A stretch of DNA of 64,000 nucleotides from Mayamaea pseudoterrestris. Its lineage: Eukaryota; Bacillariophyta; Bacillariophyceae; Sellaphorales; Sellaphoraceae. The DNA lies in NCBI GenBank assembly GCA_027923505.1, contig BROI01000004.1, positions 930,001 to 994,000 of the forward strand, in the 5' to 3' direction. The notes below the pieces were generated by a model that made no database searches, was not told the DNA's origin, and worked only from the letters and a program-made list of their open reading frames with translations. Below are positions 30,821-64,000 of the stretch, piece by piece. The stretch's first letter is position 1. Each line of letters begins with the position of its first letter. A program made the translations under genes and the position numbers.

Positions 30821-30933
30821 GACTAAATGCTTCAGGCATTGGCGTTCTAGTACTACTTATCTTGCAAGAGTCACAATTCAATTGTTTGTGACAAAATCTA
30901 ATAATATAAAAATTTGGTACTGCGGCATTACAT

Positions 30934-40140: not shown

Positions 40141-42694
40141 ATGTCGCGACGTTCTAGCTATACCGAAATTGGAGGCGTGTCTACATCGGACAGTGGTAAT
40201 GGACATGGTGATGGCACAAGAAATTACAGCAACAAAATGAATCTTTCGCAACTTCATTACATTGGCGCACTTGCGGCGCTAATACTTATTGGCGCAGCTG
40301 TCTACAAGTTGAATCCTTTTGCCAAGGATCAAGTCATTGTCGTCCAAGATCATCCGGTCAACGAACCACTTCCATCTATTGAGTATCGGCCATACTGTGA
40401 GTCGCACAGTCGCCTCAAGAAGACCATTCAACTCATTCAAACGAGCATGAGCGAACCATCCCGACAATGGGCTCCGTTGCCATGTCTACCTGCCGCGCAA
40501 AGGCGTGTGACGCTCAATACAGCCTTGGCGCCCGACGCGAGAATCATGGTGGATTTTAGCAAGACGCCGTTCAATCATTCGGTGCTTGGATTTGGAGGCG
40601 CGTTCACCGACAGCAGCGCATTGAACTTTCATCGGCTCTCCAATCGCGGCAAGGATCAAATCATGGAACTCTTATTTGGCAAATCGGGGTTGGGTTACAG
40701 CTTGGGGCGAGTTCCTATCAATTCGTGCGACTTTTCTGTCGACAGCTACTCGTTCGACGAAACGGTGGACGACTTTGATTTGGTAGATTTTGACCTGGCC
40801 GTCACGCAGAATGTCGAGAATGGCATGGTTGACATGATCATGCGGGCATCAAGCAAGCTCAAGACGGACTGGAATCTTGATTTGAAGCTCATGGGTAGTC
40901 CATGGTCGCCTCCGGCCTGGATGAAGCATCCAACCCAGCAAGACTCCAAGCATGCCGTTCATGCGGCTAAAATGACGGGGTCACACGAGCCATCCTGTCT
41001 ACGAGATGGTGTCGGAAAGAAATCCAAGTACGCAGCGTCATGGGCATTATACTTGAGCAAGTTTCTGACCGCCTACGAGGCGCTGGGCTTGCCCTTTTGG
41101 TCGCTCACCGTGCAAAACGAACCAGAGTTTGCCGCGCCATGGGAGGCTTGCGCTTATACGGCCGAGGTGCAGAAGGACTTTGTCGCGCATCACCTTGGAC
41201 CGCGACTCAAGGATGACCATCCAGACGTGAAAATTTTGATCTTTGACCACAACAAGGATCATGTGAATGACTGGGTTGAGGAAATTATGAATGCGAGCAG
41301 TAGCGCCGCTGAATATGTTGATGGCACCGCCTATCATTGGTACGCGGGTGGCATGGATCGCTTGCTAGATGGTGCGCTCGGGACGCCAAACATGCATCGC
41401 CTCCAGCACAAGCTTCAGAAACTTGGTATCCACATTGACCACATTGTAATTGGTTCCGAGTCCTGTCACTGTCCGACGACGGCGTATGCTGGTGGCAGCA
41501 AGGAGATCTCTTGGGCGCGAGCCGAGCGATATGCGCATACTATACTTGCCGACTTGGCGGCGGGGAGTCACGGTATGTACAGTGACATGCCAATGCATTG
41601 TGTGTGTTTTGAATGTAGATAGATTAAAACTGATTCCCTCACTTTTACTCAATCATCAAGGTTGGATGGAGTGGAACCTTATACTGGATGGCATCGGTGG
41701 ACCAAACCATCTCGGAAACCTTTGCGAGACGACCCTCCTGTCAGTCCCACACCGAGCGATGGATGCGACCATTGACGCGTCTCCTCTACCTCATTTTGAG
41801 TTGCAGCAACCCATGGGTAACATTAGTATGGGCGATGGCAGGACGCGGGAAGAACTGAACGCACTTGGATTTCCAGCCAGTTTTCTGGATGTGGGCATTG
41901 CTGTGCAGCCAATCTACTTTTACATGGGACACATTTCTCGCTATGTTCGACCCGGATCGACTGCCGTCATGGGCTTGGTCCATCCTGCATCTGGAGATGG
42001 TGGTGATATCTTCATGCCAGAGGGACAAGACGTCCCAGGTGGAGGCTTGAACGATCTGGCGAAGACGGGTATAGAGCTGACTGTCTGGCCATGTGAAGGA
42101 TCGACACGCCAGCAATTCAAATGGGATGACATTACGCGGAATATCAAAGTGCATGGCCATGACTGGCTGGGCAATCCGACTGCTTCTTGCGTTGACGGAA
42201 AAGTTGACAGCGATTTTCATGGTTTGCGACTCGTTGAATGTGACGACCAAGCGGGAAAATTTGGTTTCAGAGACATTGGCAATAGTACGTTTCAAGTGCT
42301 GCTGGAGAGTGGGCTTCGCACTTCGAAAGACCATTGTTTAGTAATTGAGCACCTTGGCAATGACGGTGGATCGTACGGACGTACTGGCGGGGCTCAAGTA
42401 AGTCTTGGTAAATGCTCTCACCCGTCTGCCGAGTGGATTATCAATCCTGTCACTGGTGAAGCTTCTTCGCTGTACTTCAAAAATGAAGAGGCTGAAAACA
42501 GGGTTTGTATGACGACTGGTTGGCCCTTCCTGCAGGTAGGAGCATTCTTGACTCCCGAAGGCGATGCGCCTCAGACTGTCGTAGTACTTAACGAAGCAAG
42601 TCAGTCGGCAAACTATGCTCTGCAGGATGAGAATGAAGTTCTTGTGACTGGCATGATACCGCCGCGATCCATACAGACGATTACGATAGGCTAG
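40141..42694 (+). CDS. GH30 glucosylceramidase with inserted lectin-like domain
   Basis: Two exons, join(40141..41572,41661..42694), 821 residues; the 88-bp intron splits a Gly codon before WMEWNL. Residues ~40-55 form a signal anchor (type II). The GH30 TIM barrel has GFGGAFTDSSALN, acid/base Glu327 in TVQNEPE and nucleophile Glu440 in GSESCHC, both intact. After GGPNHLGN and YMGHISRYVRPGS the C-terminal beta-sandwich begins. Then about residues 614-760 read like a ricin-type beta-trefoil (LTVWPCEG, QQFKW, CVDGK, EWIINP). The sandwich closes with VVVLNEASQ and PPRSIQTI. The enzyme should cleave beta-glucosyl ceramide or related glycolipids in the endomembrane or lysosome-like vacuole. Confidence 0.88.
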
Positions 42695-42756
42695 CCATAT
42701 AAAAGTTAAACGTCAAGTCTATTGATAACCTCTTCTAGTTATTTTTCGATATCTAT

Positions 42757-44213
42757 TTATGGCCCAAAGTCGTGATGTCCGACACATAGTGCAGTTGCCA
42801 AGATTCCAAAGACAAGGAAGGGTTGTGAGCTCGCTTGGTACTTGACATCATTGTTGATTGGATCGGGCAGCAAGAGCGTCGCTTGGAAGTAAACCTGCGG
42901 CAAAAGCAAAGCGAGCATAATGGCTGCATACGTGGGTTCTCCAATGCTCAGCAGATAAGCAGCAACGCCCAACTGGGTGAGGGTAAGGCCTCCGGCGCAT
43001 ATGTATTTGGCGGTGTCGACGCCAAAGGCGACGGGAAGTGATTGCAAACCAAGTGCGCGATCACCTTCAATCGATTTAAAATCGTTAACGATGGCGACCG
43101 ACAAACCCGCAATGGAGTAGAGAATTGGACTGTAATAGCGAGATGATATGCTTGTGTAAGCGATACACACATCGGGGAATCTGCAAACCAAGCAATATGA
43201 CTTGTGATACGTACAGAATAAAGTAGACCGGCCGGTCTAGGTCTCCAAAGACTGCCTGCCCACACCACCAAGGCAAGGAAATGTAGGACGCGCCAAGCGC
43301 AAAGTTACCAGCCCATCCATTCTGCTTCAGCTTTAGAGGAGGAGCTGAGTAAATATAACTAATGAATGAACCAAAGATGGACAGCAACAGGACGGTTGGA
43401 ACGTCGTGACCGGCCCACACGTCAAGGCCATAGGCAATTCCTAGACCTCCAAGCAGCAAGAACCAAATCTGCGCAATAACTTCCTTCTCTGAAATGGCTC
43501 CACTGGGAATCGGACGGTAAGGTTCGTTAATAGCGTCAATCTCGCGGTCGTACCAGTCGTTGATGGTTTGTGTGTATCCAGTAAGAAATGGACCAGCGAG
43601 AATCTACGGCAGTGCAGAATATCAAAAACATTGAGTGAGAACTGGATGCGATAAACGAAATGAAATTGTTGCGGCAAGTGCAACGCTTGACGTACCATGG
43701 CGACGAATCCTTTCGCCGCATCCGTCAAGCCGAGCATGACGTCGCGATCGTTTGGGTCAAACGGATTCCAGATCCAGTGATAGTTGCCAGACGCGGCTGC
43801 CCCGCACATGACACCCCTGTGGTTGCGTCACGATAAAGTGTTAGAGCAAAATTTCGGCATATCATTGTACTCCATGATAGTGTGTTCATTCTGACGTACC
43901 AGACGAGTGGTACCCATGTGACAGGCTTAGTCAATTGCAGTCGAATCTTCCAAATATTCGTCTCTGAAGCAGCTCCTTTAACTCCCAACAGTTGTCGAAG
44001 ATTTCCGTTATTGTCTGCGTCTTGCTTCGCTTGCAACAGCGTTTCACTGGAACGAGGTGACGGTTCTTGTTGAAAGGGAAAGAAAGAATCTTGTCGTCCG
44101 GGAAGCAGTGAAACTTTGGACAATGACGATCGACTCGTCAATTTTGACGCGAAACTCTGGAAGCCATTTGCTCCAACAGCTAGTAGAAGAAGAAGCACGA
44201 TTTTTGACGACAT
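42757..44213 (-). CDS. chlG: Chlorophyll synthase
   Basis: Four exons, complement(join(42757..43129,43215..43603,43696..43816,43900..44213)), 398 residues; introns 85, 92 and 83 bp, all GT-AG with consistent phases. Residues 1-17 are a signal peptide ending ANG-F, followed by a Ser/Arg transit region. The UbiA-type prenyltransferase has two Asp-rich motifs: NDWYDREIDAINEPYRPIP and, in the second half, NDFKSIEGDRALG. PVTWVPLVWGVMCGAAASG is diagnostic of ChlG. Hydrophobic helices fill the rest. The enzyme attaches phytyl or geranylgeranyl diphosphate to chlorophyllide in the thylakoid membrane. It is divergent from DUR3 across 685 bp. Confidence 0.93.
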
Positions 44214-44898
44214 GGTTGCCTTGGCCGGTCTCGGGTTGTGAAAGAGCAAGGCCAAGTTGATGTTTGGATCGGTTTATGGAACCTTGTGACGTGCGGCTGC
44301 AATGATTCGTCGTATCGGTAATGGTTTTAGTCGTGGTACGACGGCGACTACCGGTTAGGTAGAGTAATGTATGGACCGGTTAAGTATCACGAAGGCACTA
44401 ATTTTCGTCGAAGCTAAAAGACGCTGATGGTTGGCAATGCCGCCTAACGACTTCAAATGCTGTAACAGTACAAAGTACGATGATCAGGCAACGTGAGTGT
44501 ATACTTGCACTTGACGCATAGCTACCGGTAGGCGACTTAACAACAGCGTCAAACGCCAGTCTATGGTATCCAGCGTGGCCACGGCATTGCCTCTCCACAA
44601 GGCAATTGACATTTGCTCCAACGGAAACGGATGATGCCAAATGATATTTGTCATTCAGGAAAACTACAAATGCCGGAAGTGAATTTTATAGCCCTTGAAG
44701 TCAAGTCAATAGCTTGACATCATTCAGTATTGAATACTTGACGCTGCATCATTAGTCTGAATGAAAGAGTACTGAAAGGCTTTTGGATCTTCCGCACCTG
44801 CCCGCTCACCTTGAAGTATTTTTCTCATTCGACAGATCGATCACAATTTTCGATCCTCGCTTGCGATACAATAGCAACCCCAAGGATCGAACAAAACC
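44214..44898. promoter_or_regulatory. Shared ChlG/DUR3 divergent promoter region, 685 bp
   Basis: Contains two inverted-repeat motifs sharing CTACCGG: CTACCGGTTAGGTAG at 44348-44362 and the 10-bp palindrome CTACCGGTAG at 44522-44531. Closer to DUR3, two degenerate copies of a ~26-bp unit (44711-44735 and 44736-44762) share CTTGAC, CATCATT and TGAAT. These may be regulatory sites for light- or nitrogen-controlled expression; that is a guess. No ORF is credible. Confidence 0.4.
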
Positions 44899-47671
44899 AT
44901 GTCGCTCTCTGTTGCCGACTTTCAAACTCCACCAGAGTTCAGCACCTATGCCGGGCAGGAATCGTTCTTTGAAGGGAGCCCTCCGCGTAAGTGAAGATCG
45001 AAGGAATTACCCGTTGTGTCGCGCGATGCTCATCTTCCGAAGATCCAGAGAGAAGTTTCACGACGTCCACATAATCGATCATGCATCATGCCTTACCAAC
45101 GCTCTTCTTGCCTGTACAACAGTCTCTCAAGGAGTTGGATACGCGGTAGTGTTGGGCTTCGGTGTTGCCTTCTCCGTCCTTACGACTCTTCTCGTTTACA
45201 TCAACCGTTGGTTTAGTGATCAGGGAAATGTGACCTCCGAACATTTCAAGTGAGTTTACATTGGATCCTCTCAAGAGTAGAACTACTGCAGGATGCCTTT
45301 GCGGGCTTTTTATCTCCTATTTATGCTCACATCATCATTTTTTCGTTCTGCAGCACCGCTGGGCGCATGATCAAAACGGGTTTGACTGCCTCTGTCGTTG
45401 TCTCCAACTGGACATGGGCTGCGACCATTCTTCAGTCCTCCAACGTTGCCTGGGAGTATGGTGTCTCGGGACCTTTCTGGTACGTTCAGCAAGCGCGATG
45501 GCGATCCATGCATGAATGGAGATTACAAGTGCCGTCATGAGAGAGGGAACTTTCGTGATTAGCTAACCCTCTCTTCGCTTTCTACGAACAGGTACGCTTC
45601 AGGAGCTACCATTCAAGTACTTTTGTTTGGTGTCCTTGCTGTCAACATCAAGAAGGTTGCTCCAAGCTCTCATACCGTCTGTGAGATTGTCAATGCCCGT
45701 TGGGGCAAGGCGGCTCACATCACCTTTCTCTGCTTTTGCTTCGCGTAAGTGACAGCGCTGGCAGTGTCGCATATTGTTGCCGTCTCTGTGCTCATTGATT
45801 TGCTTAACTTCTTTCGCCATCAGCGCGAACATTATTGTCACGTCGATGCTTTTGCTCGGTGGCGCCGCCACCATCGAGGCGCTCACCGGCATTGACTACC
45901 GTCTCGCTGCGTTTCTCATTCCGTGGGGAGTAATCTTGTACACGGCCAGTGGTGGGCTCCAGGCTGCCATGCTTTCTGCCTACGTCCATACGGTTGTCAT
46001 TTACGCAGTCTTGGTCATTATGGTCTTCCTTGTCTACATTAAACTCTACTCAAGCGATCAGATCTACGATTTCCTCCAACAGACCGTTAGCTACACTGAA
46101 GATGAATGTAAGGCCATCTTCTCGTCAAACGGAACGGTGGATTCCACTTTCTTTGAAGCAGATACGTACGCCTGCGGACCTGTTCCGGGTAACAACGAAG
46201 GTTCCTACTTGACCATGCTGTCCGGCGGTGGATTGATGTTTGGTGTGGTAAGTACCCAGTCATCTTCATTCCGCTGCACACAAAGAACAAGCTAACTGCT
46301 ATACGCCCTTATTCTCCTCCAAAGATTAATCTGGTTGGTAACTTTGGTACTGTTTTCGTGGATCAAGTGTACTGGCAATCAGGTATCGCGGCGCGTCCGT
46401 CATCAGCTGCTCGTGGGTACTTGCTTGGCGGGTAAGTGGAGGACTTTTTACGGTGTAGTACTTTATGAAAACCATGCCTCACCTTTTGTATCTTTCGCAT
46501 CTATTATAGACTCTGCTGGTTTGCCATCCCCTTCTCCCTTGCCACTTCGCTCGGCTTGACTTCGGTTGCCCTCATGCTCCCCTTGACAAAGGACGAAGCG
46601 GGCAGTGGCTTGGTGCCACCTGCTGTGGCCTACCAGCTCCTTGGTAACGCTGGGTCCGTCCTGATTCTTGTCATGCTTTTCATGGCTATTACTGCCACTG
46701 GAGCGTCAGAGTCCATCGCAGTTGCCTCTCTGATTACGTACGACATTTACCGGACGTACTTTAACCCGGATGCCACGGGAGACCAGATTCTTCGCGTCTC
46801 GCAAATCTGCATCGTCGTCTTTGGCATTTTCAGTGGTGCCTTTGCCATCATTTTGCAAACGATTGGTTTAACTCTTGGATGGGTCTATCTCTTCATGTAA
46901 GTGCATGTTAGCTACAGAGTCTCCAACGTCAAGCGCCATTCTCATCGTTTTGCTTTTCTCAGGGGTATTGTCATTGGATCCGCTGTCTGCCCATTGTGGA
47001 ACATGATGACCTGGAAGAAGGCCAGTGGCACCGGCGCAGTCATTGCTGCCTGGGGTGGCTTTGCGCTCGCCCTGATCACGTGGCTCGTCGCTGCCAAGAT
47101 CCAAGGCGGAGAGGTGACGGTCGCCACCCTCGGCACGAATGAGGTCATGCTCGCAGGCAACTTGGTCGCCATCTGCATGTCAGGCACCATCCACTTTGTC
47201 TGGAGCATGTGGATTGACCCTCAAGATTACGACTTTTCCGAACTCGACAAGCGCATTTCTCTGGTCGAGGAGGACAATCGCGGCTTGACGGAGGAGGAAC
47301 GCGATCCGGTGCTCTTGCGTCGCACCGAGCGTTGGATCAAGCATCGCGGATACGCCATTAGTCTCATTCTCATTGTCGTCTGGCCAGTGCTTTCCATTCC
47401 GGCTGGAGTCTTTACCAAGTCTTACTTTGCGTTCTGGGTCCTCGTGTCCGTCGCGTGGGGCTTTGCCGCGGCCATCATCATCACCATTCTCCCTCTCACG
47501 GAGAGTGCCGAAGATATCAACCGCGTCTTGTCGGGCATGTTTAACAAGGTCTTGGGTCGTGAGCCAGATATTCGCGGCCCCAAGCCCGGTATCGAGAGTA
47601 CGGAAGCTGTCGAGGAAGCGCCACACAAGGTGGATGAGGACGACAGCGTTGAAAAGGTTGTGGATGCCTAA
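44899..47671 (+). CDS. DUR3: DUR3-type urea/Na+ (or H+) symporter
   Basis: Eight exons, join(44899..44986,45123..45249,45354..45479,45592..45744,45824..46247,46325..46431,46510..46896,46963..47671), 706 residues; seven GT-AG introns of 66-136 bp, all phases consistent. Solute:sodium symporter fold with DUR3 landmarks: [16 protein letters not shown] in TM1, [76 protein letters not shown]. The cytosolic C-terminus after WIDPQDYDF is acidic. DUR3 imports urea as a nitrogen source at the plasma membrane and is induced under nitrogen starvation in algae. It is by far the most intron-rich gene here. Confidence 0.93.
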
Positions 47672-48042
47672 TTGAGCGACGGGCAGTGCGCAATTCTCTT
47701 GCGCATGTTCATTTTTGTTTTGAAGATTATTTTGTGGATCTTATTATTTTGAAGGAAAACAATTTAGTAATTTTGCCTTGTTTTTGACGCTTGCGCTATC
47801 GAACATATTTGTAGTATTGCCTGAGCTAGCTGAAGAAGTGTTTACGATATCCTACTTACAACGACTCAGAAAACATTAAAATAAACAAGTACCAGTATAC
47901 GGCACAATTGCTGCTATTAGAAAAAAACAAAGCGTCGTTCTTTGCAAAACATGCATTCGTCCAGTGGCATCGACAAATTTCACTACCAGTAGCACCGGCA
48001 ATCAAACAAAACGACGCGCTGCGTTTTATTTGCCTTGCATAG
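47672..48042. other. Intergenic between convergent genes, 371 bp
   Basis: AT-rich 3' flanks of the DUR3 (plus) and RPA3 (minus) genes, including T- and A-runs that may hold polyadenylation signals (an AATAAA-like AAAATAAAC on the plus strand near 47878). No ORF or RNA gene recognised. Confidence 0.4.
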
Positions 48043-48546
48043 TTAGGAAGTAGTTCCAAGGTAAAAGTACTGCTGGTACTTGGGGTGATGCTGCACCTCA
48101 ATCATCTTTTCGTAGACGGATAGGTCAACATCCGGCGAGAGCTCTCGAACGACAAAGACCTGACGTGGCGACGAATGCAACAAAGCATGGAAACATTAGA
48201 AACGATATTATGACAGAGAGTCAATCAATCAATAAATCACTCTTAGACTGGTCCGTTTCCTTGCTGTTACTGTGTATCATCAAAATGCATTACTCACCGT
48301 CAGTGCATTATCCGCATACTGTCCCACCATTTCCATCACCATGCCTTGCCCCGAAACATCAAGATCCGCCGGCGGTTCAATGTATTGCGTACTCAATGCA
48401 ATGGTTCCGCCGTCACTGCATTGAAACTGCGTGGAACTTTTGTAGTAACGGCCAACGACGGAAACAATCAGGCTTGCGTCAATCTTTTGCGAAGTAAGCA
48501 TCGCAGCGTTGGCGCGGACGAAACAACCTTCCGGGCCAGCGGACAT
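48043..48546 (-). CDS. RPA3: Replication protein A 14-kDa subunit (RPA3-like)
   Basis: Two exons, complement(join(48043..48159,48298..48546)), 121 residues; the 138-bp intron joins ADNALT to VFVVRELSPDVDL. The second exon is too short to stand out as an ORF. The product is a single OB fold: RANAAMLTSQKIDASLIVSVVGR opens the first strand, and GQGMVMEMVGQYAD is the family's V-E-V-x-G block. EKMIEVQHHPKYQQYF closes it with the C-terminal trimerisation helix. Length and order fit RPA14/Rfa3. It stabilises the RPA trimer on single-stranded DNA during replication and repair. Assignment rests on fold-level similarity. Confidence 0.8.
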
Positions 48547-48895
48547 GGTATATGAGCGTTTATAGAATAGACAGCAATGTTGTGGAGGTGAATTTTTTGC
48601 AGCGTCGTCGAGAAGCTGCGGTTGTCGGTTGTCGAATGTCGGCTGTCGGTTGTCGGTTGTCGGTCGTCGGAGGCGTCCATGGCATGGCGCGGCGGTGCAA
48701 CAACGTTTCCAGGAGATCGTACCGGTACTCACTCCACGCCAGGCGAGCCACCCGCGAGTGGACGACATCATTCGAATCTTTTGCGATCTTGATTTTCTTC
48801 AACGAAAGTCAACTCATTCATTCATCGCCTTATCTGCTGCATATCCAAGCTGCTACTCTTCCCGTCAATACAGAGAAAATCGAGTAGAAGCGAAC
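48547..48895. promoter_or_regulatory. Shared divergent promoter region with heptamer repeat
   Basis: Separates the RPA3 (minus) and GH5-like (plus) genes. It contains a seven-copy heptamer tandem repeat at 48621-48669. The plus frame is open through it but has no ATG until 48896. Confidence 0.4.
48621..48669. repeat. Seven tandem copies of a GTTGTCG-type heptamer
   Basis: The units read GTTGTCG, GTTGTCG, AATGTCG, GCTGTCG, GTTGTCG, GTTGTCG, GTCGTCG. All share the TGTCG or CGTCG end. It is a small tandem repeat within the RPA3 promoter or leader side and may be either a binding-site array or simple slippage. Confidence 0.8.
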
Positions 48896-50788
48896 ATGCA
48901 TTCATCTTCTTCCGACGCGATGAAAGATTCATCCTCATCTTCTCCCGCTGAACCAACTTGCGTCTTGGATCAAACCGTTGTCAACGCCGACACGCTGCCG
49001 CTCATGAAGGATCTTGGCTTGAGCTTTTTTGCCTCCCTCTGCGGAATGAACCGAGGAGCTTTTGTCTTGCAGCCAAGTGACAATCAGACGTACAGCTGTC
49101 TGCATTTTCCAAAACATTTTCCATCTTTGGCTGGCGTGAACAAGCACCGTTTCATGAATGTTACCAGTCAAGTGAACGTGACGGATAGCAGCAGCAGCAA
49201 GTCATCGGATGACAACAGCACTGCAACTACCAAAGAAGTCACGAAAGAGATTCCTTACGATTTAATCATCAAGGATGCCAACGCCATCAAGGAAACATAC
49301 CAGATGCACAACGTCACAGCCAACGAAACGGTTCAACTCTTGGACTACTTGATCAAATCCGTCTACCATAGCACGCCTGGCAAAGACATGGATCCGTACG
49401 CCTGCAACGTGAACGGTTTGGCGACTTTGCAGTGCGCGCCTGTCAATACGATTCGCACCATTCGCGCCGTGACATTGGCTGGCTTGTACGTTCCGGCGCT
49501 GTGGGCGACCAACGGCAAGGAACTGAGTATAAACGAGCAAGATGACTTTTACACGAGACGCGACTTTGAAGACATGCGCGCGCTCGGTTTGAACACGGTG
49601 CAGATTCCAGTGCCAATGGAAGCCTTTTCGGAACATGATCGCGACAAGGTCAAGTCGAGACTCGCAGACCTGTTGCACGAGGTTGGCAAGGCTAACCTTC
49701 AAGCCATTTTAATGCTCGTGGGAGAAGACAATGACGACGCCGTTGCGGCTGCGGCGCACTATGCTGCGGATCACTCGTCGACCGTCTTTGCACTGACATT
49801 GCCATCCATGCAGAGTATTGGAGCGGCGCGTGCGGCCGAGTCGTCGCTCAAGCTCATGGTTCCCGTGAGTCAGGGCGACTTGTCGCGTCTCAATTTTCAC
49901 GGCGATGCCAACATTTTTGCGGCACTGGATGTGGATCACACATCGACAGTGGCCGATGTTGCGTCGTCCAACGCGGAGGATGACCGCAGTAAGCTCTTTT
50001 ACCACGAGTCGACAGCCTGCGTCGCTAGGTCGCCCTTGGAGTTTACGCATTGCTACAAGCGCATTCCCGTCTTTGTTGCCAAGGGCTTTGACTTGAGCAT
50101 TGACAATTGCTTTCGTAAAGAATTTGACCCAAAGTTTGTCGACTATGGACAATGTGGACGTTTTGATGAGACGGTGGATTCCGGTTGGTGGAGTCGGCAC
50201 CGTAGCTCGTTTGCGGTCCGGCAGTTGTTCTCCTACGAGCATGGGCTAGGCTGGAGCTTTGCTACGTGGAAGTTGCATGGTGGCGATAAGAGTAGCAGCA
50301 GCAGTGGATCGACGCTCGATTCGCCAGCTTCGTTGTTGGCGCTCAAGAATGTGGCTGCTGCCGGCTTGTTTCCTTCGTTGGACGGAGATGACAAGGCCGC
50401 TGTTCATGAAATTGCTGCCGCTTGCTTGAATGGCCCAGAGGCCGACTTTATTCTCGGGGATCGAACGCTAGCGCCTACAATGGGTCCTCCGCCGGCCTGT
50501 CCGAACAACGGTTGGTGGAACTATACAGCCGAAGCATGTGAGTACTGGGTTCCGCCGCCGACGGATGCCCCGTCAGGTCGGCCCACAGTGGCTCCAGTGA
50601 TTTGTCCGGAGGTTTCACCGGCGACAATTGTTTGCAACACTAGCTCATCAAGTTCTGGTCACAAGGCAATTCTTCTCTCGGCCGGCGCTGGTAGCGTCAT
50701 GACGCTCGTGTTAATCGCGATCTTGACCAAGGTGTTCGGGCGAAAGAGAGAGGGATACACAGCCATTCCAAACTCGAACGTAGTCTAA
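48896..50788 (+). CDS. GH5-like TIM-barrel membrane protein, perhaps inactive
   Basis: Single exon, 630 residues from the ATG at 48896. A Ser-rich N-terminus is followed by a luminal or extracellular region with many N-glycosylation sequons and Cys. Parts resemble exo-beta-1,3-glucanase barrels of GH5: RRDFEDMRALGLNTVQIPVP (strand 3 region), YKRIPVFVAKGFDLSIDNC (where active enzymes have VGEWS) and SYEHGLGWSFATWKLHG (the final barrel block). A Pro/Thr-rich linker and one membrane segment (ILLSAGAGSVMTLVLIAIL) precede a short basic tail, giving type I-like topology, though no classical signal peptide is seen. The expected nucleophile Glu is not visible, so it may bind rather than cut glucans. 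Confidence 0.65.
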   Translation: MHSSSSDAMKDSSSSSPAEPTCVLDQTVVNADTLPLMKDLGLSFFASLCGMNRGAFVLQPSDNQTYSCLHFPKHFPSLAGVNKHRFMNVTSQVNVTDSSSSKSSDDNSTATTKEVTKEIPYDLIIKDANAIKETYQMHNVTANETVQLLDYLIKSVYHSTPGKDMDPYACNVNGLATLQCAPVNTIRTIRAVTLAGLYVPALWATNGKELSINEQDDFYTRRDFEDMRALGLNTVQIPVPMEAFSEHDRDKVKSRLADLLHEVGKANLQAILMLVGEDNDDAVAAAAHYAADHSSTVFALTLPSMQSIGAARAAESSLKLMVPVSQGDLSRLNFHGDANIFAALDVDHTSTVADVASSNAEDDRSKLFYHESTACVARSPLEFTHCYKRIPVFVAKGFDLSIDNCFRKEFDPKFVDYGQCGRFDETVDSGWWSRHRSSFAVRQLFSYEHGLGWSFATWKLHGGDKSSSSSGSTLDSPASLLALKNVAAAGLFPSLDGDDKAAVHEIAAACLNGPEADFILGDRTLAPTMGPPPACPNNGWWNYTAEACEYWVPPPTDAPSGRPTVAPVICPEVSPATIVCNTSSSSSGHKAILLSAGAGSVMTLVLIAILTKVFGRKREGYTAIPNSNVV

Positions 50789-51196
50789 GTGGACCATGGC
50801 GTAATAAATTAGTAGTGACAACTTTTGCCTATTATTACGCCAGTCATCCATCGTACAGGACTTGGGCCATGGAATAAAATTGTTCGCTAGACGCACCGAG
50901 TGTCACCTGCTCTGCTGTTTCCACGTAACACGAGAACTACGATAGAACGCTGCCTCTCTGATGCATCCTCCTGATCACGGTAGATTGAATGACCGCTGTA
51001 TTGCATTGATATGATAGCTTGAACTGGTTCCAGTCCATAAGCTACGGTAGCCACTTGCCCGGCGCGGCAGGCGGCTCGCCGCGAGCCGGCCATTCCTGCG
51101 CTCACAAATTCGTCCATGCCAAATGCCAACAACTTTTTCGCGAATCGATACCGTACGTACCATGCAATTGAAACGCTTTACAACACAAGCGATGCA
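50789..51196. other. Intergenic, 408 bp
   Basis: Between two plus-strand genes. It holds the GH5-like 3' end and the promoter of the next gene. GC-rich patch near 51060-51095 with GGCTCGCCGCGAGCCG, a perfect inverted repeat that could form a hairpin. An in-frame ATG at 51116 could extend the next gene by 27 codons. Confidence 0.4.
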
Positions 51197-52102
51197 ATGA
51201 TTTTTAAACTATGGTTCATCAGCTTAGTAGTTGCTGGTAGGGCGGTAGAGGTTTTGTCAGAATGGACATGCCCCGCCGGACGAGCTGCTATCAATGATCT
51301 GCTTGACTCGGAGGATGATGAGTTTGATGTTGATGCAGGTCCCTTGTCGAAACATGGCTTCGAGCTCTTTATATCCAATCAACTAATTGATCCAAACAGG
51401 CACACGGTGCTGCAAGTTGGGATGGATTATGTCCTACGGATCAAGGTCACAGAGGATCGATTTCGGGGCGCGTTTCTACGTCTCGAACCATTGAGCGAAG
51501 TCAGCGACACGTCGGGTGCGCTGCAGCCCCGCGATGCCACGACACAAGTCAGCAAGTATTGTGACGAGCCCGTGGTTGGTATTGGGACAATTGACTTGGA
51601 GTCAAAGCCGGGTGTGACGGGCATTCTTCGCATGGACGAAACAGCGAATGCCATGTTGGATGTGACAATCGTCAAAACGTTCACAGATAATCACATTACT
51701 TATGCGTATTCGCAATACAAGATCAGGTTCGTTAACGACATGCCCCTGCCTGCGATCCCTACGTCTAGTCCTACCATGCTACCAGATATGGAGCAGCCGG
51801 CATCATCTAGCTTTTGTTCCTTCCATCGTGTGCAGCAGTGCCAGTCTGACTACTTGTCGACGCAACAGACGGACGATTGTAATAGCTGTATCTCCACAGC
51901 CCACTCTCAGCAAGTGTCAAGTTGCGATCAAATGGAAAACACGTTATGTGCAGCTTTAAAGAATTGCTCCTGCGGTGCTTGTAGCACGCATTTGGAAGCC
52001 TATCTGAGCTGTGCCTACAATAAGTTGCTAGGATGCGACATTGATTGCAGCATCTCCAGTCATACAGCATCTATTCTTGATGAGTTCGCTTTTACAGCAT
52101 AA
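51197..52102 (+). CDS. Secreted Cys-rich protein with Reeler-like domain
   Basis: Single exon, 301 residues from the ATG at 51197, chosen because it places a signal peptide first (MIFKLWFISLVVAG). An ATG at 51116 is possible. Residues ~15-175 contain CPAGRAAI, HGFELFISN, VLQVGMDYVLRIKV and RFRGAFLRLE, resembling the Reeler domain in which FRGF marks a central strand. After a Ser/Pro/Thr linker comes a Cys-rich C-terminal module with 14 Cys (CSFHRVQQCQ, CNSCIST, CSCGACS, CDIDC). No membrane segment follows, so it is probably secreted. The function is unknown and the Reeler call is tentative. Confidence 0.6.
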   Translation: MIFKLWFISLVVAGRAVEVLSEWTCPAGRAAINDLLDSEDDEFDVDAGPLSKHGFELFISNQLIDPNRHTVLQVGMDYVLRIKVTEDRFRGAFLRLEPLSEVSDTSGALQPRDATTQVSKYCDEPVVGIGTIDLESKPGVTGILRMDETANAMLDVTIVKTFTDNHITYAYSQYKIRFVNDMPLPAIPTSSPTMLPDMEQPASSSFCSFHRVQQCQSDYLSTQQTDDCNSCISTAHSQQVSSCDQMENTLCAALKNCSCGACSTHLEAYLSCAYNKLLGCDIDCSISSHTASILDEFAFTA

Positions 52103-52191
52103 TGTGTCTTGTCGGCACAGTATGCGATTCAGTTTAAACATGTAAATTTAGCTGTTACTGTAGCGTTTAGCTCTAAGTTAAATAGCATTTG

Positions 52192-53298
52192 TCAATGACG
52201 ATTTGCATCGTCCTTGCCCACTTTTTGCAGCGATTGAATCTGCTGCCGAAAGAATTCTCGCTTCATGCCATTGATGAACGGCCAAACAAGACGTCCCATG
52301 GTAGTCTTTGGCTTTGCGATTGACATAATCTCCACGTCAATGCTATCATCGCTGCGAAGCGCCACGGTCAGGCGCTCCTCCCCCTGTAACCAGTGACCAC
52401 GAAGCGTCGCAAACGCCGTGGATGTGTAGGTTCTCGTCAGGGGCGACCATGATGCATCGACAGCCGGAAAAGGGTCTTGGTCAACCACGTTGTAAACAAC
52501 TGACACTGGATTGACGGCAAAGACAATTGGGAGAAACTTGGATCGCACAAACGTCACCAATCGCTTGCTCGGCCCCTGCCATATTTGCTGCGTCGACTCG
52601 GATGTTGCAGCAAATGGGTGATTGCTAATGTAATCGTCATTGTCAACAGGTCGGACCGAGTATATGCCGCGCAAAGCTTCGGGCGGATGCACCTGCGCAA
52701 TTCCTTGGCGTTGCGTGCTAAATTCCCAGTCCAGCGCAGCGTCTCGGATTCTTTCATAGCAAGACAGACCATGACCAATGTTTCGTTGTTGAACGCGACA
52801 AATGTTCCAGTCGGCTTGCTCGAGAACGCTTTCCGGAATGGCAGTCCCTGGCCACCATTCATTGTGTTCTTGCTCTTGCTGCACAACACCGCGAGACACT
52901 GAAACAGTCTCGCTCAGATTAGCTGCCTGACTAGTCGATGCTGCAATGGATGGATTCGTCATGCCGACCATATCGTGGTTGTAGTATTGTCGTCGCGTAA
53001 TACAAGCTTGTGGTGAAGCCGTTCCAACGTTGCCTCCAAACCACTTTGTCAATTGTTGCCTCGATGGCTTGCCAAATGACAGGACTGTTCCCCTTTGTCG
53101 CACTTTTTCGTGTATTCTGCTCGTTGATCGTTGTCGAGCCTTGCTGATGTAGCGTTCCTTGAGTCGCGTCAACTTGCGTTTGGTCAGGCGCAAGGAAGGT
53201 TCGCGTCGAATGCGATGCGACGGTAATTCTTTGGCTGATGCAGCAATAAGCAGCAGCAGTAAACAAAATAAAGCTCCTCGATGATTAAGTATCATCAT
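52192..53298 (-). CDS. DUF1990 (UPF0548) domain protein with signal peptide
   Basis: Single exon, 368 residues from the ATG ending at 53298 (tandem ATGs). Residues ~8-23 are a signal peptide (GALFCLLLLLIAASA). A basic region rich in R and K follows, then the DUF1990 domain in the C-terminal half: AALDWEFSTQRQGI, IVFAVNPVSVVYNVVD, ATLRGHWLQGEERLTVAL and the final MSIAKPKTTMGRLVWPFINGMK. The domain is found in bacteria and plants and has a START-like fold suggestion; its function is unknown. Entry into the secretory pathway is unusual for this family and may mean plastid import, though no Phe-type junction is clear. Confidence 0.75.
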   Translation of the reverse strand: MMILNHRGALFCLLLLLIAASAKELPSHRIRREPSLRLTKRKLTRLKERYISKARQRSTSRIHEKVRQRGTVLSFGKPSRQQLTKWFGGNVGTASPQACITRRQYYNHDMVGMTNPSIAASTSQAANLSETVSVSRGVVQQEQEHNEWWPGTAIPESVLEQADWNICRVQQRNIGHGLSCYERIRDAALDWEFSTQRQGIAQVHPPEALRGIYSVRPVDNDDYISNHPFAATSESTQQIWQGPSKRLVTFVRSKFLPIVFAVNPVSVVYNVVDQDPFPAVDASWSPLTRTYTSTAFATLRGHWLQGEERLTVALRSDDSIDVEIMSIAKPKTTMGRLVWPFINGMKREFFRQQIQSLQKVGKDDANRH

Positions 53299-53693
53299 GC
53301 AATTTGTCACCTAAAGAGCAGATTGCCGTAAAAATCATGAGGACTGGACGAGGAGATTCCGTGGTCCATGGTGCAACTGAGCGCTGTCATGCTCAAGAAC
53401 AACCCGGAGCTGTGAGTCTTGCAACTCCGACTGTGAATCAAACAGTAGTGCTAAAAGCTACGTAGACTAATACATGCGCAGCTCGTTACTATAACAATTT
53501 ATAACGGGTAAGAGTTTGTTTAGCGTTTTGCTGCACAAGCGACAAATGTGCATGGGCTTGGCCATCAGTATTAGCTGACTGACGCGCTGGTTGCGTATTC
53601 ATTGCATCTTTAACTGGCTGCATGGGACGCGGTGATCTTTTGGGCGAGATCGCGTCCTGTTGCCAAGAGTTTGGACGAGCCTTGCGAAATCAT
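53299..53693. other. Intergenic, 395 bp
   Basis: Between the 5' end of the DUF1990 gene and the 3' end of the sulfotransferase gene, both minus. It holds the DUF1990 promoter. No ORF or repeat of note. Confidence 0.4.
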
Positions 53694-56600
53694 TTATTGA
53701 ATCTCCTTGGGCTGTGTTAACTTTGAATTCGTAATGTTGGCAATCTTGTCATGCTCTTCTTTCTTATTGTGATGCGCCCAGCACGAAGCGTCCAAGTCAA
53801 AGGCATCGGCCATGATAGTCCCAGCGAGCGGATCCGTAATGTTTATTTCCACCAAATGATGCGACGGATGGTTCTTCACAAAGGCACGTATCATGTCCGT
53901 GTGCTCCTGGTAAATCTTTGCGAAAAAATCGCGTCGTTCGTCGCCATATCCAATGTCGGCGAGCGTAATGCTGCTATTCTTCGCCATGTACTCGTTCATC
54001 AGCCATCGCTTCATCATGAACCAGTGCATCACGGAATACGCCCATACTTGTGGCTCCCGGAGAGGAAGAACAAACGTTGCATCAGGATAATCGGAATGGA
54101 TCTTGTCGAGACTAAAATGTTGGGGCAAAAAGTGTGCGTAGGGCGCGTCGAGAGACCTGGTGCCGTTTTCAAAAAGCATTCCGATACGTTTGCGCTTGTC
54201 CCTGGGGCGCTCTCCGTCAATTTGCGCGAACACTTGATAGTCGCCACATCCTTCTAGCATCTTGTTGCCCTCCGCCATGTTCATGAGAATACACTCAGCC
54301 ATTGTACCCTTTTCGCAAGGCGGAGCGTCGCTCGTATCTCCATAGGCGCAGTAATGTTGGGTGACAACGTCAGAGCAAGTGAAGAAATTGTAGATGCTTG
54401 TGGTTCCAGATTTTGGATAACCGACGACAATGACTGGAAGCGATAATGGCAGCTTTTTCTTAAACTCAGCAACTGGCGCAGGAACGTCTTCAATCGACTC
54501 GGCATCGATAAATTTGCCCTGCGAGAGGGCGCCAACGACTCTATCGGCAATCTTGGCGTGCTCCTCCTTCTTGTTCTTGTGGCCCCAGCAAGTCTCGCTT
54601 AGCCCGAAAGCGTAGCTCATGATCTTGCTAGCATTTGGATCAGTAATGTTTACCTCGACAAGCTTGTGAGATGGATGCTTCTTGACAAATTCTCGAACGT
54701 TGCGTGAATGATCGTCGTAAACTTTCGCCAGGAACGCTCGCCGTTGATCGCCGTACCCAATCATATCAAACTCGAGACTGCTATTCTTGGACATGTACTC
54801 GTTGATGATCCATCGCTTCATCATGACTGGAAGCAATAGAAAAGAAGGAAAGCGTTGTCCTTAGCGCATCGTCAAAAGAACGCCAAACACAAAACTCGTA
54901 GAGCATGCATTACTTACACCAGTGCATGACCGAGTACGCCCACACCATTGGTTCTCGAAGAGGAAGAACGAAAGTTGCATCCGGGTAGTGCCTGTGAATG
55001 TCGTCCAAATTGAATACTTGTGGTAGAAAATGCGAAAATGGAGCTGCCAGCGACCAAGTATCATTTTCAAATCGCATGCCAAGACCAGGTTGCTTAGGCC
55101 GTTCTCCGTCAATTTGGGCATACACCTGATAATCTCCGCACTTGTCAAATAATGGTTTATTTTGTCCCATGTTGTTGATTATGCATGACGCCATCGTCCC
55201 TCGCTGGCAAGGCGGTGCATCATTAATTTCTCCATAGGCACAATAATGCTGAGCCACAACGTCCGAGCAGTTAAAGTAATTCCATATACTTGTCGTACCA
55301 GACTTCGGAAAGCCTACAACGATGACAGGCTCGGGCAGACTTAGCTTCGTTCGATGAACCATTCGCTCGGCCGCCAACTCGTCCTCTTTTTGTCGCTTTC
55401 GTTCCGCAGCCTTCATTTCACGCTCCACTGCCTTTGCAATGGCGAGTTCTCCAACCTTTGACAAATCAAGCTTCTTCAGCTTGGTCTTCTTCGGCACGTC
55501 CTCCTCCTCGGTTCGAGTTCCATTGGTTCCCCAACACGATGAATGCAGATTGAAAGAGCTGGCCAAAACCTTGCCGGCATTTGGATCGGAGGTGTTGACC
55601 ACAATTAACGTGCTTTCCTTATCTTTAAAGAAGTGCTGAACGTAGTCATTGTGCTCTTGATAAATTTTCATGAGAAAATCCTTTCGTGGCTTGCCATAAT
55701 CGGGAAATTGAATGCTGCTGTCGTGGAGCATATACTCGTTTATGATCCATCGCTTCATTGAAAAGAAGCCCAAAACTGATAAAGCCCACTCTTCTGCGTC
55801 CTTTACAGGTAGTAGGAAGGTGGCGTTGGCATTCTCTTGATGGAGTCGCTCCAGCAGGTGATGTTGCGGCAGAAAGTGTCCAAACGCAGCATCTTTGCGG
55901 TGGCTTCCATCGTTCATGAGCATGCCCAGCCCAGGCTGCTTTGGCCGCTCGCCATCAATTTGCACAAAGACTTGATAGTCGCCGCAGCCTTCAAGCATGG
56001 GGCGCTCGTCGGCCATGTTGTTGAGTATACATTCCGACATGGTACCCTTGTCGCACGGACTTGCGTCCGAAACATCGCCATAGGCGCAACGACGCTGTGT
56101 TGGCATGCCTTCGCACGTAAAGTACGCCCAAAGGTCGGCCAATCCACTCCGCGGATATCCAAGACTGATGATTGGTGACGCCAACTTGATTGGTTTCCAT
56201 CCATTCGCCTGCTGCTCTGCTGAAATCGTATCGACTGCTTTTGCTTTTGGAAATCTGACAAGTTTGTCATGCGACTCCTTCTTGTTGTGGTGCCCCCAGC
56301 ATTTGTCACTCAAGCCAAAAGATTTGCTCATGACACTACCAGCATTTGGATCGGTAAGGTTAACTTCGATGTACGCATGGCTAGGATGTGTGGCTACAAA
56401 ATCTCGAACAACTTGAGTATGCTCCACGTAAACGCGCTGCAAGAATGCATCCAAAAAGCCAGCTCGCTTGGCTGGAATGGTAATACTTGAATCGTGCGCC
56501 ATGTACTCATTCAAAATCCATCGTTTCATTTGAAACCAATGCATGACACTCTTGGCCCAATCGGCTGGATCACGCAGCGGAAGTATAAAGGTTGCTTCCG

Positions 56601-57678
56601 GATAGTCGTTGTGAATAACCTCTAAATTGAAATGCTGAGGCAAAAAGTGTCCAAAGGCAACATCCTTGATGCGCGTTCCATTCTCGTACAAGGTTCCCCA
56701 GCCTCGGCTCTTTGGTCGTTCGCCATCAATCTGAGCATATACTTGGTAGTTGCCGCAGCCGTCAAACATTCTGCGCCCTTCGGCCATGTTGTATAACACG
56801 CATTCAGCCATGCTGTATTGTGAATGATAAAGTTTGCCAAGCAAAGGCAGATTGTATGTTTGAACAAGGCGAGTCATGCGAAAGCACAAGTAAAGTGAAG
56901 GAGTAATGAATGTGAGAAACTTATTAATATCAGATCTCGCGACAAGCCTTTTCCGAAGATCATTTATTCAAACTCAAGTATGTCTCTCTCACTCAAAGAA
57001 TACAAGTCTATTTACTCACGTCGCTTTACTGCAGGGCGGCGCATCCTGCAAGTCGCCATAGGCGCAAAAATGCTGGGCGCGAACATTGCTGCAGTTAAAG
57101 TAGCTCCAAATGCTCGTCGTTCCAGACTTTGGAAAGCCAAGCACAATGACTGGAAGCTTTTGCGAAAGTTGCACCAACGACGAGGAATCGCTGTCTGTCA
57201 TGGCTTGACCAAAGTCTTGGTGGGCGAAGCGGCGAGCGACAGTGTTTGCTGCTGCGGATGCTGTCGACTGCTTGACGTTTCGTTGCTGCTTCTCTTTGCG
57301 TCCAGTTCGTGACTGCTGCCTCAAAAAAGCATCCTTGCTCGGAACTCCGCCACTACCGTCATGCATAAAGCTATTCAAGTAGTCCATGGCGTCTTGTGTC
57401 GAAGAGTGTTTGCGGCTGTTGCTTCGTCGGCTGCTATTTGAATAGAAAAGCACGATGGATCCAACGACACAGGCAAGCATGAGCGTTCGTAATCGAATAG
57501 CGAGACATTTTTGAATCATTCGTTGAATCAAGCCATGTGATCGAGCTTGTCCCTTGGAAGAAATACTGCTAGCATGATGTTGATGCTGATGTTGTTGATT
57601 GATTGTGCTTCCATTCGATGGATGACTCGAGGGCAGTTTCTTTCCACTGCCGCTTCCATTGCCTGCAAATCGCTGCAT
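53694..57678 (-). CDS. Four-domain tandem sulfotransferase, type II membrane protein
   Basis: Three exons, complement(join(53694..54826,54918..56812,57020..57678)), 1228 residues; introns 207 and 91 bp, GT-AG, phases 2 and 1, each falling inside a sulfotransferase domain and restoring its sequence. A Gln/His/Ser-rich cytosolic start and a membrane anchor at ~63-80 indicate Golgi type II topology. Four ~260-residue sulfotransferase domains follow. Their 5'-phosphosulfate loops lie at 183-188 (PKSGTT), 440-444 (PRSGL, degenerate), 722-727 and 989-994 (both PKSGTT). Each shares CAYGD/E, GCGDYQV-type, QIDGERP, HFLPQ and MKRW-x-x-NEYM blocks; 3'-phosphate Arg and Ser occur in LPLREPMVWAYS. A charged coiled coil separates domains 2 and 3. 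Substrate is probably a polysaccharide or glycan. Confidence 0.88.
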
Positions 57679-57812
57679 GATACAATAGATTAGAGTCTTA
57701 TTTGTTCCTGTTAGTCTATGATGACTATGAAGAAGTGGAGTGGACGACAGGGATTTGATTGCAGGCACGTCGGCCGCTCGAAAAGGAATTGGAATCTCAT
57801 GGTCATTCTCGA

Positions 57813-57992
57813 GAACAAAAACTAAATATCCAGCCACAGATTCTTCCGCTTACTACACAAAGACGGCGATTGCTAAAACTTGGGTAGCTATGTGTAGCAA
57901 CCCAAGCACCCCCGCTGGGCTAGCAGAGCAGGTCCAGATCCGCGCCAAAGGGCGGGATGCTTGCCAGCTGCAGTGTGCTGCTGCTGAACCCA
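57813..57992 (-). repeat. Outer terminal direct repeat (B2) of the retrotransposon
   Basis: A 180-bp copy that matches 58212-58391 in the same orientation with one difference. It forms the outer 3' boundary of the element, next to the leader of the sulfotransferase gene. Confidence 0.85.
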
Positions 57993-58211
57993 GGGATGGG
58001 CTAGGGTGGGAACTTTAATCTATCTTACAGTCCTCGAACAAGAGCTTCGAGGCAAACAGACCAAGAGAATGACAAGCAAGCAAAGATTGCGAAGCAATCC
58101 TTGGAGAGGACCCATGACCTCTGGAAACCAATGCGCCAATGCCGTCATCCGATGACGTCACCATTGGCCAATCAAATCACCGCTTTCCTCCGGCTCTCCA
58201 GAATCCCACAT
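57993..58211 (-). repeat. Spacer between terminal repeats (candidate A2)
   Basis: 219 bp between the two direct copies. In PAT/Ngaro elements this position holds A2, a copy of the element's 5' end. The 5' end is not in the window, so identity cannot be tested here. Confidence 0.5.
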
Positions 58212-58391
58212 GAACAAAAACTAAATATCCAGCCACAGATTCTTCCGCTTACTACACAAAGACGGCGATTGCTAAAACTTGGGTAGCTATGTGTAGCAAC
58301 CCAAGCACCCCCGCTGGGCTAGCAGAGCAGGGCCAGATCCGCGCCAAAGGGCGGGATGCTTGCCAGCTGCAGTGTGCTGCTGCTGAACCCA
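58212..58391 (-). repeat. Inner terminal direct repeat (B1) of the retrotransposon
   Basis: Second 180-bp copy; it begins about 30 bp beyond the end of the recombinase-coding region. Confidence 0.85.
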
Positions 58392-58924
58392 TGAAGGAAA
58401 TGCAAGGAGGCCGCGCCAGGAGCTAAGCGCCCCAGGCTTTGCGTAGTCCAGAGGAAGAGGAATGCCTGTAGCCCGTAAATGGAACGGTGGTGGACACTGG
58501 CGAAGGACTGGTGGACTGGAGGTTGTTGTTGTGGTTGTTGTTGGTGGGAGTCGTGGAAGGTTGAAAGCGAGTAGCGCTAATGGTGTTGAAGTTGGTGACA
58601 GTGAGCATCTTCTTGGAGACGCCGGCTGAGAATAGATCAACTTGTTTGCGTATGTATTCCATAAAGGCTTCACTGCGCCAGCGGCCTTGTAGCTGAATGG
58701 TTGTAATAGGGACGCCCGACATGTACATTGCCATGGCGGCAGAGGCGCGTATAGAATGGAGGCCAATCGTGTCAACTGATAAACCAATGGACTCGGGATT
58801 GTTAAAGCTGATAAAATCGCGTAGAAAGGCGAGCGCCATCTTGGTATGGAGAGCAGCAAGCTTGCCGTCGTCTGCCTCGTAATAGTAGAAGTAGTCGTCA
58901 TCCTCACTCATGAGTCCCTTGTCA

Positions 58925-59478
58925 ATAGCAGGTATGCAACAGAAAGTAGTATCACTATGCCGTTAAAAGTAGCGCACCTCGGAATCGAACCAAGGATAAC
59001 CGGCTATATCACCTCTAAACACGCTGCTACTTTTCCGTCTGCTAGTGTACTATATGCTGCATACAAGGCACCATGCACTATGACAAGTAAAGGTATCGCT
59101 CTGGTTGCTGTTTTTCGTGTGCAACCTGCTACTCCCCTAGCTTTGCGCGTCATAGTGCTAACTCGTCTTCCGTTTCAGCTGGCATTTTCGTCTCGCGGGG
59201 GAATGTCACTTTTCAGTTTTTCCTGCGGCGTTTCGGGCTCGGCGCATCTTTGTGCACTCCCCAGGGTCCGCGACTCCCCATCGTTCGTTCGTGACAAACC
59301 CGTGCAACCAGTGAATTTTTGCTTTTTCTTCGCTTGATTCGATCGCAACTCGAACCAGCAGCCTCAGTCCAGATCTCTCGATAGGGACGCTACCATAGCA
59401 GGTATGCAACAGAAAGTTTGCAAAGCGGTAAAAGTGCGCATGTGCTACTTTTCGTCTGCTAGTGTACTATATGCTGCA
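58925..59478 (-). repeat. Short repeat pair with ~320-bp core, nested in the recombinase region
   Basis: Two diverged copies of a short unit (about 58925-59061 and 59395-59478) lie in direct orientation, with a unique core at about 59062-59394. Shared ends are a 23-bp identical block at 58925-58947 and 59395-59417, and a second block containing GTCTGCTAGTGTACTATAT in both. The layout resembles a small terminal-repeat element or a target duplication. The minus strand of the core starts GGTAGCGTCCC and later has GGTTCGAG, weakly like Pol III A and B boxes. Confidence 0.55.
58969..59030 (-). pseudogene. tRNA-like fragment (tRNA-derived sequence)
   Basis: On the minus strand 62 nt read as a shortened tRNA. 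They have GTAGC/GCTAC acceptor ends, a D-arm-like GTTTAGAGGTGATATAGC, and a perfect T-arm (CTTGG, TTCGATT, CCGAG) with the Pol III B box GGTTCGATTCC. The anticodon arm is too short for a working tRNA, and the acceptor stem has mismatches at its inner end. It resembles the tRNA-Gly layout. It is present in only one of the two short repeat copies. Confidence 0.5.
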
Positions 59479-59891
59479 ACAGGCACCACGGGGCAGAAGC
59501 GGGATTGCTGCATCGAAGAGATCGCCAGAGCTATGAGTTGTAACGCTATCATCCTTTACTTGATTCTTTTGCGCTCGAAAGACGAGAGACACCGAATTGG
59601 AAAGATGGAGCGAAGGGGAAGAGTGTGACACGAGCACGCCGTCTTTCCAGAACCGCGTATCGCAAACTCGAATAGGAAGAGTCCTTCTTTCAACTTTGTC
59701 TCCTTTATGGATCTTGAGGTATTCACAAGAGCGAAGAGCAAAGAAGAAAGCGAGCGTAATGATCCTTTGAAAGTGACGGTAGCCAGCGGAGGTGGCTTTC
59801 TCGGCGGCCATCTTCATGAGCAACGCCAACGGAATCGCCTGTTGATGCCCCGTGGTAGGATCCTCGTTATTATAGCCGCGAAACAAGCGTG

Positions 59892-62800: not shown

Positions 62801-63431
62801 TTCCTCGTGGCTTGAAAGACTGAAGTAACAAGGAGCCACGTGGCTGCGAAGAAGAAGGAGGAGAGCCTCCAAAGGGTAGAGGAGAGCCTCTGCGGCCAGT
62901 TAGAGAGCCAACTGGATTTGGGAGTAAATTCCCGGAAGGAAGAGGAGAGCCTCTTGAACCAAGCAGAGAGCTACCTGGGGTTGGAGGAGAGCCTCCGGGG
63001 TTGAGCAGAGAGCCGCTCGATGGAGGAGAGCCTCCGGATCCAAGTGGAGAGCCACTTGGTAATGGAGGAGAGCCTCCTAGTTGATTTAAAATCGCTCCAC
63101 GTGGAAGACGGCGAGTTGGAACATAAAGAGGCTCCAAAGGCGCAGTGTCGCTCTCAGGGATTGGGGATCCCGTCATGACGCGAAAACTGGCTTTGGAGCG
63201 CCCTCCAGTGCTCCGTCTGCTATCTCCAGTGAAAGAAGAAACCTCCGCAGGACACGCGAGTGTTGTGTCGGTTGCCATTATAGATGTTAATGGCGAGTTG
63301 CGGGGACGGTTTGTAGTTGATGATGTGCTGCGCACCGATGTCGCTAGAGAAGTCGTTGCGGTTTCGAGTTGTTGGCGAAAGACTTGCAATTGATTATGAA
63401 GAGGCGCAAGATCGAGGTTTGTAGGAGTCAC
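59892..63431 (-). mobile_element. Reverse transcriptase / RNase H frame of the retrotransposon
   Basis: An open frame of about 1180 codons. The first ~450 codons are Ser/Pro/Gly-rich with a repeated GSPP-type motif. The RT domain includes YDWKSAYKNCHFG, LRMTFGGSPCP and FLDDHLGL (the F-x-DD catalytic form used by this order). The RNase H domain includes PTDACLAQVGGHD, HHINFLEFLG and AIGDNTTAAGW. No protease or DDE integrase is seen, which fits DIRS-order elements. Confidence 0.85.
62850..63090. repeat. Low-complexity coding repeat in the retrotransposon
   Basis: GGAGGAGAGCCTC-type units recur about nine times with irregular spacing; on the minus strand they encode the GSPP/GSLL repeats. This is internal to the retroelement's frame and not an independent array. 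Confidence 0.7.
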
Positions 63432-63548
63432 TAGCCTACTCGTAGCGTTTAAAGAAGCATTGGAACTGGACGCTACTAAGTTAGACGAGTCATAACTAGT
63501 AGGAGGTCCTCCAACGTGGATTCCCGCCGGCCACGTGGAGGAGGCGAC

Positions 63549-63997: not shown

Positions 63998-64000
63998 TTG

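Follow-up and report, generated by a model that had tools for sequence, protein, structure and literature searches.

The Pfam sulfotransferase families Sulfotransfer_4 (PF17784) and Sulfotransfer_3 (PF13469) are single-domain families, and the closest described multi-domain systems are of several kinds. The heparan sulfate N-deacetylase/N-sulfotransferase NDST1 is a multi-domain glycan enzyme of which one domain is non-catalytic, and the authors of the study suggest that its sulfotransferase anchors the substrate (PMC10864358). In diatoms, the multi-SITs, which are silicic-acid transporters (SITs), have a single domain repeated head to tail within one reading frame (PMC6114903). Among stramenopile algae, the brown alga Nemacystus decipiens has a gene in which a sulfotransferase domain is fused to an alpha/beta hydrolase (PMC6418280). 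The present analysis concerns a gene in a 64,000-nt stretch of the genome of the diatom Mayamaea pseudoterrestris (the window, G000:C4:930001-994000; genome of 30.6 Mb in 41 contigs; coordinates below are window positions unless a contig is named), which is predicted to encode four fused sulfotransferase-homologous units (D1 to D4) on one chain, an uncommon arrangement for sulfate-transferring enzymes: D1, D3 and D4 exceed the cut-offs of both Pfam families, and D2 does not. NDST1, not being a repeat of one unit, may be regarded as a partial analogue; the multi-SITs are not enzymes; and the N. decipiens protein, as described, joins one sulfotransferase to a different enzyme and has no tandem array.

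With the multi-SITs, the fusion of units in tandem has a precedent in diatoms. This genome has a multi-SIT of its own, an open frame of 1445 residues that contains three silicon transporter units (G000:C1:2970661-2974680). Of ten matches to PF03842 in the genome, six have E < 1e-130, three of them in this frame, and the single match found in 14 control genomes is below the cut-off, a pattern that by itself points to a diatom as the most likely source. No tandem sulfotransferase protein was found among the matches listed in a word-based survey of open-licence literature, although others may exist elsewhere; wording that suggested multiple sulfotransferase domains stood for three Pfam families rather than three domains in one protein. 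Diatoms are reported to be enriched in sulfotransferase domains in a study of Parmales (PMC10328945).

Gene model and second copy

The gene is read from the minus strand, from 57678 down to 53694, and its three predicted exons join in phase into a single frame of 1228 residues. Exon 1 (57020..57678, 659 nt) encodes the N-terminal tail, membrane anchor, stem and start of D1; exon 2 (54918..56812, 1895 nt) encodes the remainder of D1, the whole of D2 and the first part of D3; and exon 3 (53694..54826, 1133 nt including the stop codon) encodes the remainder of D3 and D4. Both introns are of the GT..AG type: intron 1 (56813..57019, 207 nt, GTGAGT...CAG) lies within D1 and intron 2 (54827..54917, 91 nt, GTAAGT...CAG) within D3, and their removal restores the conserved sequence of D1 (CSKAT-MAEC) and D3 (VMHWF-MMKRW), respectively. 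The ATG at 57678 is the first of the open frame, with none earlier in frame. Because the introns cut D1 and D3, all three junctions between units are uninterrupted, those of D1-D2 and D2-D3 lying inside exon 2 and that of D3-D4 inside exon 3. The coding frame of exon 2 has no stops in 631 codons, against 17 to 29 in each of the remaining five.

A second copy of the gene is present on contig C17, within a duplicated 17.4-kb block (40453..57812) that is found inverted at G000:C17:381528-398826, split into four segments with identities of 91.4 to 93.9%. The C17 copy has 1228 codons without gaps and 26 amino-acid differences, begins at the same ATG with a stop codon close upstream, and retains the four units and the position of each intron. 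The introns have drifted, as real introns would: intron 1 is 202 nt in C17, with 19 mismatches in 201 aligned positions, and intron 2 is 88 nt, with 6 mismatches in 87. Over the 1228 codons there are 106 synonymous versus 27 nonsynonymous differences (binomial p 4e-47), with a synonymous divergence (dS) of 0.151, a nonsynonymous divergence (dN) of 0.0093 and a ratio of 0.062 (Nei-Gojobori). This combination of intron drift and mostly silent coding change indicates that the whole array has been preserved since the two copies diverged and that the N-terminal part could vary freely: the ratio is 0.442 in residues 1-170, 0.012 in D1, 0.051 in D2, 0.012 in D3 and 0 in D4. The region of the D2-D3 linker (residues 661-712) has no nonsynonymous and 2 synonymous differences, and that of D4 (residues 980-1228) has none and 23. 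All four units are under purifying selection.

That two or more genes have been wrongly joined, or that the gene is decaying, is very improbable given that the junctions lie in uninterrupted exons and that the second copy keeps the frame, the introns and the four units at a dS of 0.151; the same junctions and conserved copy make separate genes or a chance frame very unlikely. The splice model and the matching frame on C17 therefore bear out the original prediction of three exons splicing in phase to a single polypeptide, with introns inside domains whose sequence is restored by splicing. At the level of sequence, the array is confirmed as real and conserved rather than a chance frame, and the sequence supports a single gene for a single polypeptide that has a predicted type II anchor followed by four homologous units.

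The C17 block may alternatively be a displaced piece of a haplotype, but a dS of 0.15 seems high for alleles. The match to C17 breaks off 134 bp ahead of the ATG, at 57812, and the upstream regions of the two gene copies therefore differ. An origin of the C17 copy by whole-genome doubling is not supported, one 6-kb stretch (window 8-14 kb) having been tested and found to lack a second copy; bearing on the same question, window 25.0-32.8 kb does have a second copy, at the end of contig C9.

The four units and their relatives

All four units are encoded on the minus strand. D1 (56239..57165, a span that includes intron 1; residues 172-411) has intact GFPKSGTTSI, AQHFCAYG and PLRDP motifs, and the motifs are likewise intact in D3 (54510..55341, including intron 2; residues 711-957) and D4 (53709..54449; residues 978-1224). 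These three units share GFPKSGTTSI or GYPKSGTTSI, the motif Q-H-F/Y-C-A-Y-G, and PLRDP or PLREP followed by W-A-x-S. In the sulfotransferase superfamily, the PKSGTT motif is the 5'-phosphate loop for 3'-phosphoadenosine 5'-phosphosulfate (PAPS), and the Arg and Ser of the later motifs form the 3'-phosphate site; the His of Q-H-F/Y-C-A-Y-G may be the catalytic base. D2 (55468..56190; residues 428-668) is degenerate and has lost most of these motifs, with GYPRSGLADL, TQRRCAYG and PVKDA: PRSGLA replaces PKSGTT and the hydroxyl residues after PRSG are gone (LAD), R stands in place of the His of QHYCAYG, and the Arg has become K while the Ser is retained. D2 is followed by a charged linker with abundant K, E, R and A (55342..55467, minus strand; residues 669-710).

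As separate queries, D1, D3 and D4 score 37.5, 39.4 and 37.8 bits against Sulfotransfer_4 (cut-off 22.8 bits) and also pass the cut-off of Sulfotransfer_3, whereas D2 reaches only 14.3 bits (E 0.037) against the former and likewise fails the latter. D2 is nonetheless 49% identical to D1 and 49% identical to D4. Scanned in full length, the protein has three stretches that match Sulfotransfer_4; unrelated matches below the Pfam cut-offs, such as AGO_N (20.1 bits versus 25), were disregarded. The original reading of four sulfotransferase domains must accordingly be amended, since the four separate domain matches proposed as its check are obtained only in part: four homologous units are present, three of them pass the Pfam cut-offs and keep the PAPS-site signature, and D2 is conserved but pseudoenzyme-like.

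Decay of D2 by neutral drift was considered and ruled out, since about 7 of 36 differences between the copies are nonsynonymous against an expected 79% (p 5e-14). Its AlphaFold model (predicted local distance difference test score, pLDDT, 72.0; predicted template modelling score, pTM, 0.72) suggests that a sulfotransferase-like fold is retained: sulfotransferases occupy ranks 1-13 in the Foldseek list of PDB structures, and 9 of 665 matches have E 0.001 or better. For the D4 model (pLDDT 70.5, pTM 0.73), ranks 1-18 are sulfotransferases, but just one match in 173 has E 0.001 or better. TM-scores of the sulfotransferase rows are modest, at 0.22 to 0.51 (on query). The bacterial sulfotransferases SgdX2 and Cpz8, the latter solved with 3'-phosphoadenosine 5'-phosphate (PAP), rank among the first three structure matches for both models; they are single-domain proteins, with 12 to 17% identity in the D2 and D4 structure alignments. 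A profile search of solved structures gave six weak matches, the best of which (E 0.049) is not a sulfotransferase and the next of which is SgdX2 (E 0.064). Membership of the PAPS-dependent superfamily is thus indicated by profile and motifs for three of the four units, and by fold for the models of D4 and D2. D2 combines loss of catalytic-site residues (H to R, R to K, no hydroxyls after PRSG) with a fold that appears to be retained and is constrained, as is characteristic of pseudoenzymes, and the array may be described as three sulfotransferase units with intact signatures together with one that is pseudoenzyme-like.

In a tree of the domains, each of D1 to D4 pairs with its C17 counterpart (support 98/100, 100/100 and 84/84; the D4 rows are identical), which indicates that the array predates the duplication of the block. 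D2 has the longest branch of the four (0.92 versus 0.45, 0.22 and 0.16). The order of duplications is left open by three of the nine inner branches. With a midpoint root, adopted for drawing only, D1 to D4 group with two single-unit genes, C4:1056k and C15:326k, and the other group consists of C2:343k and a gene on contig C26. The genome has other sulfotransferase genes as well, with at least 11 places matching PF17784 and at least 12 matching PF13469, in overlapping sets.

The C26 gene (L046; G000:C26, approximately 2414-4281) apparently joins an intact and a degenerate unit once an intron of 86 nt, located inside the second unit, is removed, according to a splice model drawn solely from restoration of the motif. 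Its frame runs for 594 residues from the preceding stop, with the first ATG at residue 54. In the second unit, PRTSLHR replaces PKSGTTS and the score (20.2 bits) is below the cut-off. The two units are sisters in the tree (98/93), the second on a long branch of unsure placement. Since this gene too appears to join an intact and a degenerate unit, tandem combinations of this kind apparently originated twice within the genome.

A search with a profile of all four domains confirmed none of 93 stretches in a collection of prokaryotic contigs and none of 36 in viral contigs, and D4 alone gave none of 1 in the viral contigs; the collections being prokaryotic and viral, this result does not show the array to be rare.

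Predicted location and role of the array

A single hydrophobic stretch, a predicted signal anchor at residues 58-79 (57442..57507, minus strand), has a maximal Kyte-Doolittle mean of 1.98 over 19 residues, and the only windows above 1.6 are those starting at residues 58-61; on hydropathy, this fits the type II topology predicted earlier. Residues 1-60 form a basic tail with a net charge of +7. Of 18 N-glycosylation sequons, 16 are C-terminal of the anchor, and all 18 occur at the same places in both copies; six cysteines are at matching places in each of D1, D2, D3 and D4. One anchor, a basic tail, sequons after the anchor and matched cysteines together suggest a lumenal enzyme, and the protein is probably a type II protein located in the Golgi lumen.

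The reading that we favour, with a probability of roughly 0.5, is that of a lumenal type II protein in which D1, D3 and D4 sulfate glycan by means of PAPS and D2 is a non-catalytic spacer or acceptor-binding unit. The glycan would most likely be an extracellular polysaccharide. Three units carried by a single chain could sulfate it at several positions each time they meet it, and D2 would be catalytically inactive but kept to hold a long substrate. Processive sulfation of polysaccharide by the array is plausible. A more elaborate version, in which the protein is a single-chain sulfation machine whose three active units and dead unit, as a built-in glycan clamp, repeatedly sulfate a growing polysaccharide, strikes us as improbable; if it were true, the two-unit gene on C26 would imply that the pairing of a catalytic with a pseudo-catalytic unit has more than one origin in this lineage.

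Several observations weigh against the favoured reading. Among 20 frames of the window scanned with Pfam, none can be clearly assigned to polysaccharide synthesis. In the single-unit relatives C4:1056k and C15:326k the sequence is PRSGSL, which is PRSG without the T-T pair, and C4:1056k nevertheless passes the Sulfotransfer_4 cut-off (39.7 bits), so the change of K to R and the loss of T-T in D2 are not diagnostic alone; these relatives may be active. The models of D2 and D4 are middling, and few of their matches reach E 0.001. The ratio of nonsynonymous to synonymous differences is also higher in D2 (7:29, rounded from half-counts of 6.5 and 29.5) than in D1, D3 and D4 together (2:62; Fisher p 0.0099).

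D2 might, on the strength of these relatives together with its purifying selection and its sulfotransferase-like fold model, still be an active sulfotransferase whose active site has changed. We consider this unlikely, however, because D2 has R for H and K for R at two residues that are kept by D1, D3, D4, C4:1056k and C15:326k alike, lacks a hydroxyl residue after PRSG, and fails the Pfam cut-off.

The main structural rival, on the model of the cleavage that has been proposed, rather than demonstrated, for the diatom multi-SITs, is a polyprotein: a precursor that would be processed to single sulfotransferases on its way through the secretory pathway. For the multi-SITs, the proposed cuts are at DXDID motifs that separate the units, and the authors do not exclude that the uncut protein works (PMC6114903). 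Dibasic pairs are present in the D2-D3 linker (KK, KK, RK and KR) and the D3-D4 linker (KKK), but the D1-D2 linker has none, no motif common to all three linkers is apparent by eye, and with a single anchor D2 to D4 would become soluble once released. Such processing therefore seems doubtful.

Somewhat less doubtful, but still on the unlikely side, is a substrate other than polysaccharide, be it protein, glycolipid, sterol or another small molecule. The structures nearest in fold include tyrosylprotein sulfotransferases and small-molecule enzymes, and the Parmales paper cites sulfotransferases in diatom programmed cell death (PMC10328945), but four units on one anchor would best fit a polymer. 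The enzymes that sulfate diatom extracellular polysaccharides are not named in the literature surveyed, and a report of C6-sulfated mannan in a diatom contains no occurrence of "sulfotransferase" or of words starting with "transferase" or "biosynthe". For the favoured reading of polysaccharide sulfation, the conserved array would be a concrete candidate, and it raises the idea that sulfotransferases may be multiplied on one chain in order to act on a polymer.

Surroundings in the window

The Pfam scan of the window identified a gene of glycosyl hydrolase family 30 (GH30) at 40108-42691, mostly inside the duplicated block. Just upstream of the sulfotransferase gene, window 57813-64000 is a repeated element, most of which recurs at C17:401742-407387. 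It includes a direct repeat of 180 bp (57813-57992 and 58212-58391, 99%), frames at 58.4-60.3 kb that resemble tyrosine recombinases by eye, and a frame of 1218 residues (59895-63548) that matches no Pfam family. Window 25001-32778 (7.8 kb, including an arginyl-tRNA synthetase frame) matches the extreme end of C9 (1080366-1088187) at 91%; it is a second diverged duplicate block, and may extend further left than the query. A sequence of approximately 137 bp at 39836-39973 has dozens of matches of 70-89% throughout the genome, often in small clusters, and sits in the first part of an open frame of 570 residues, the later part of which matches helicases.
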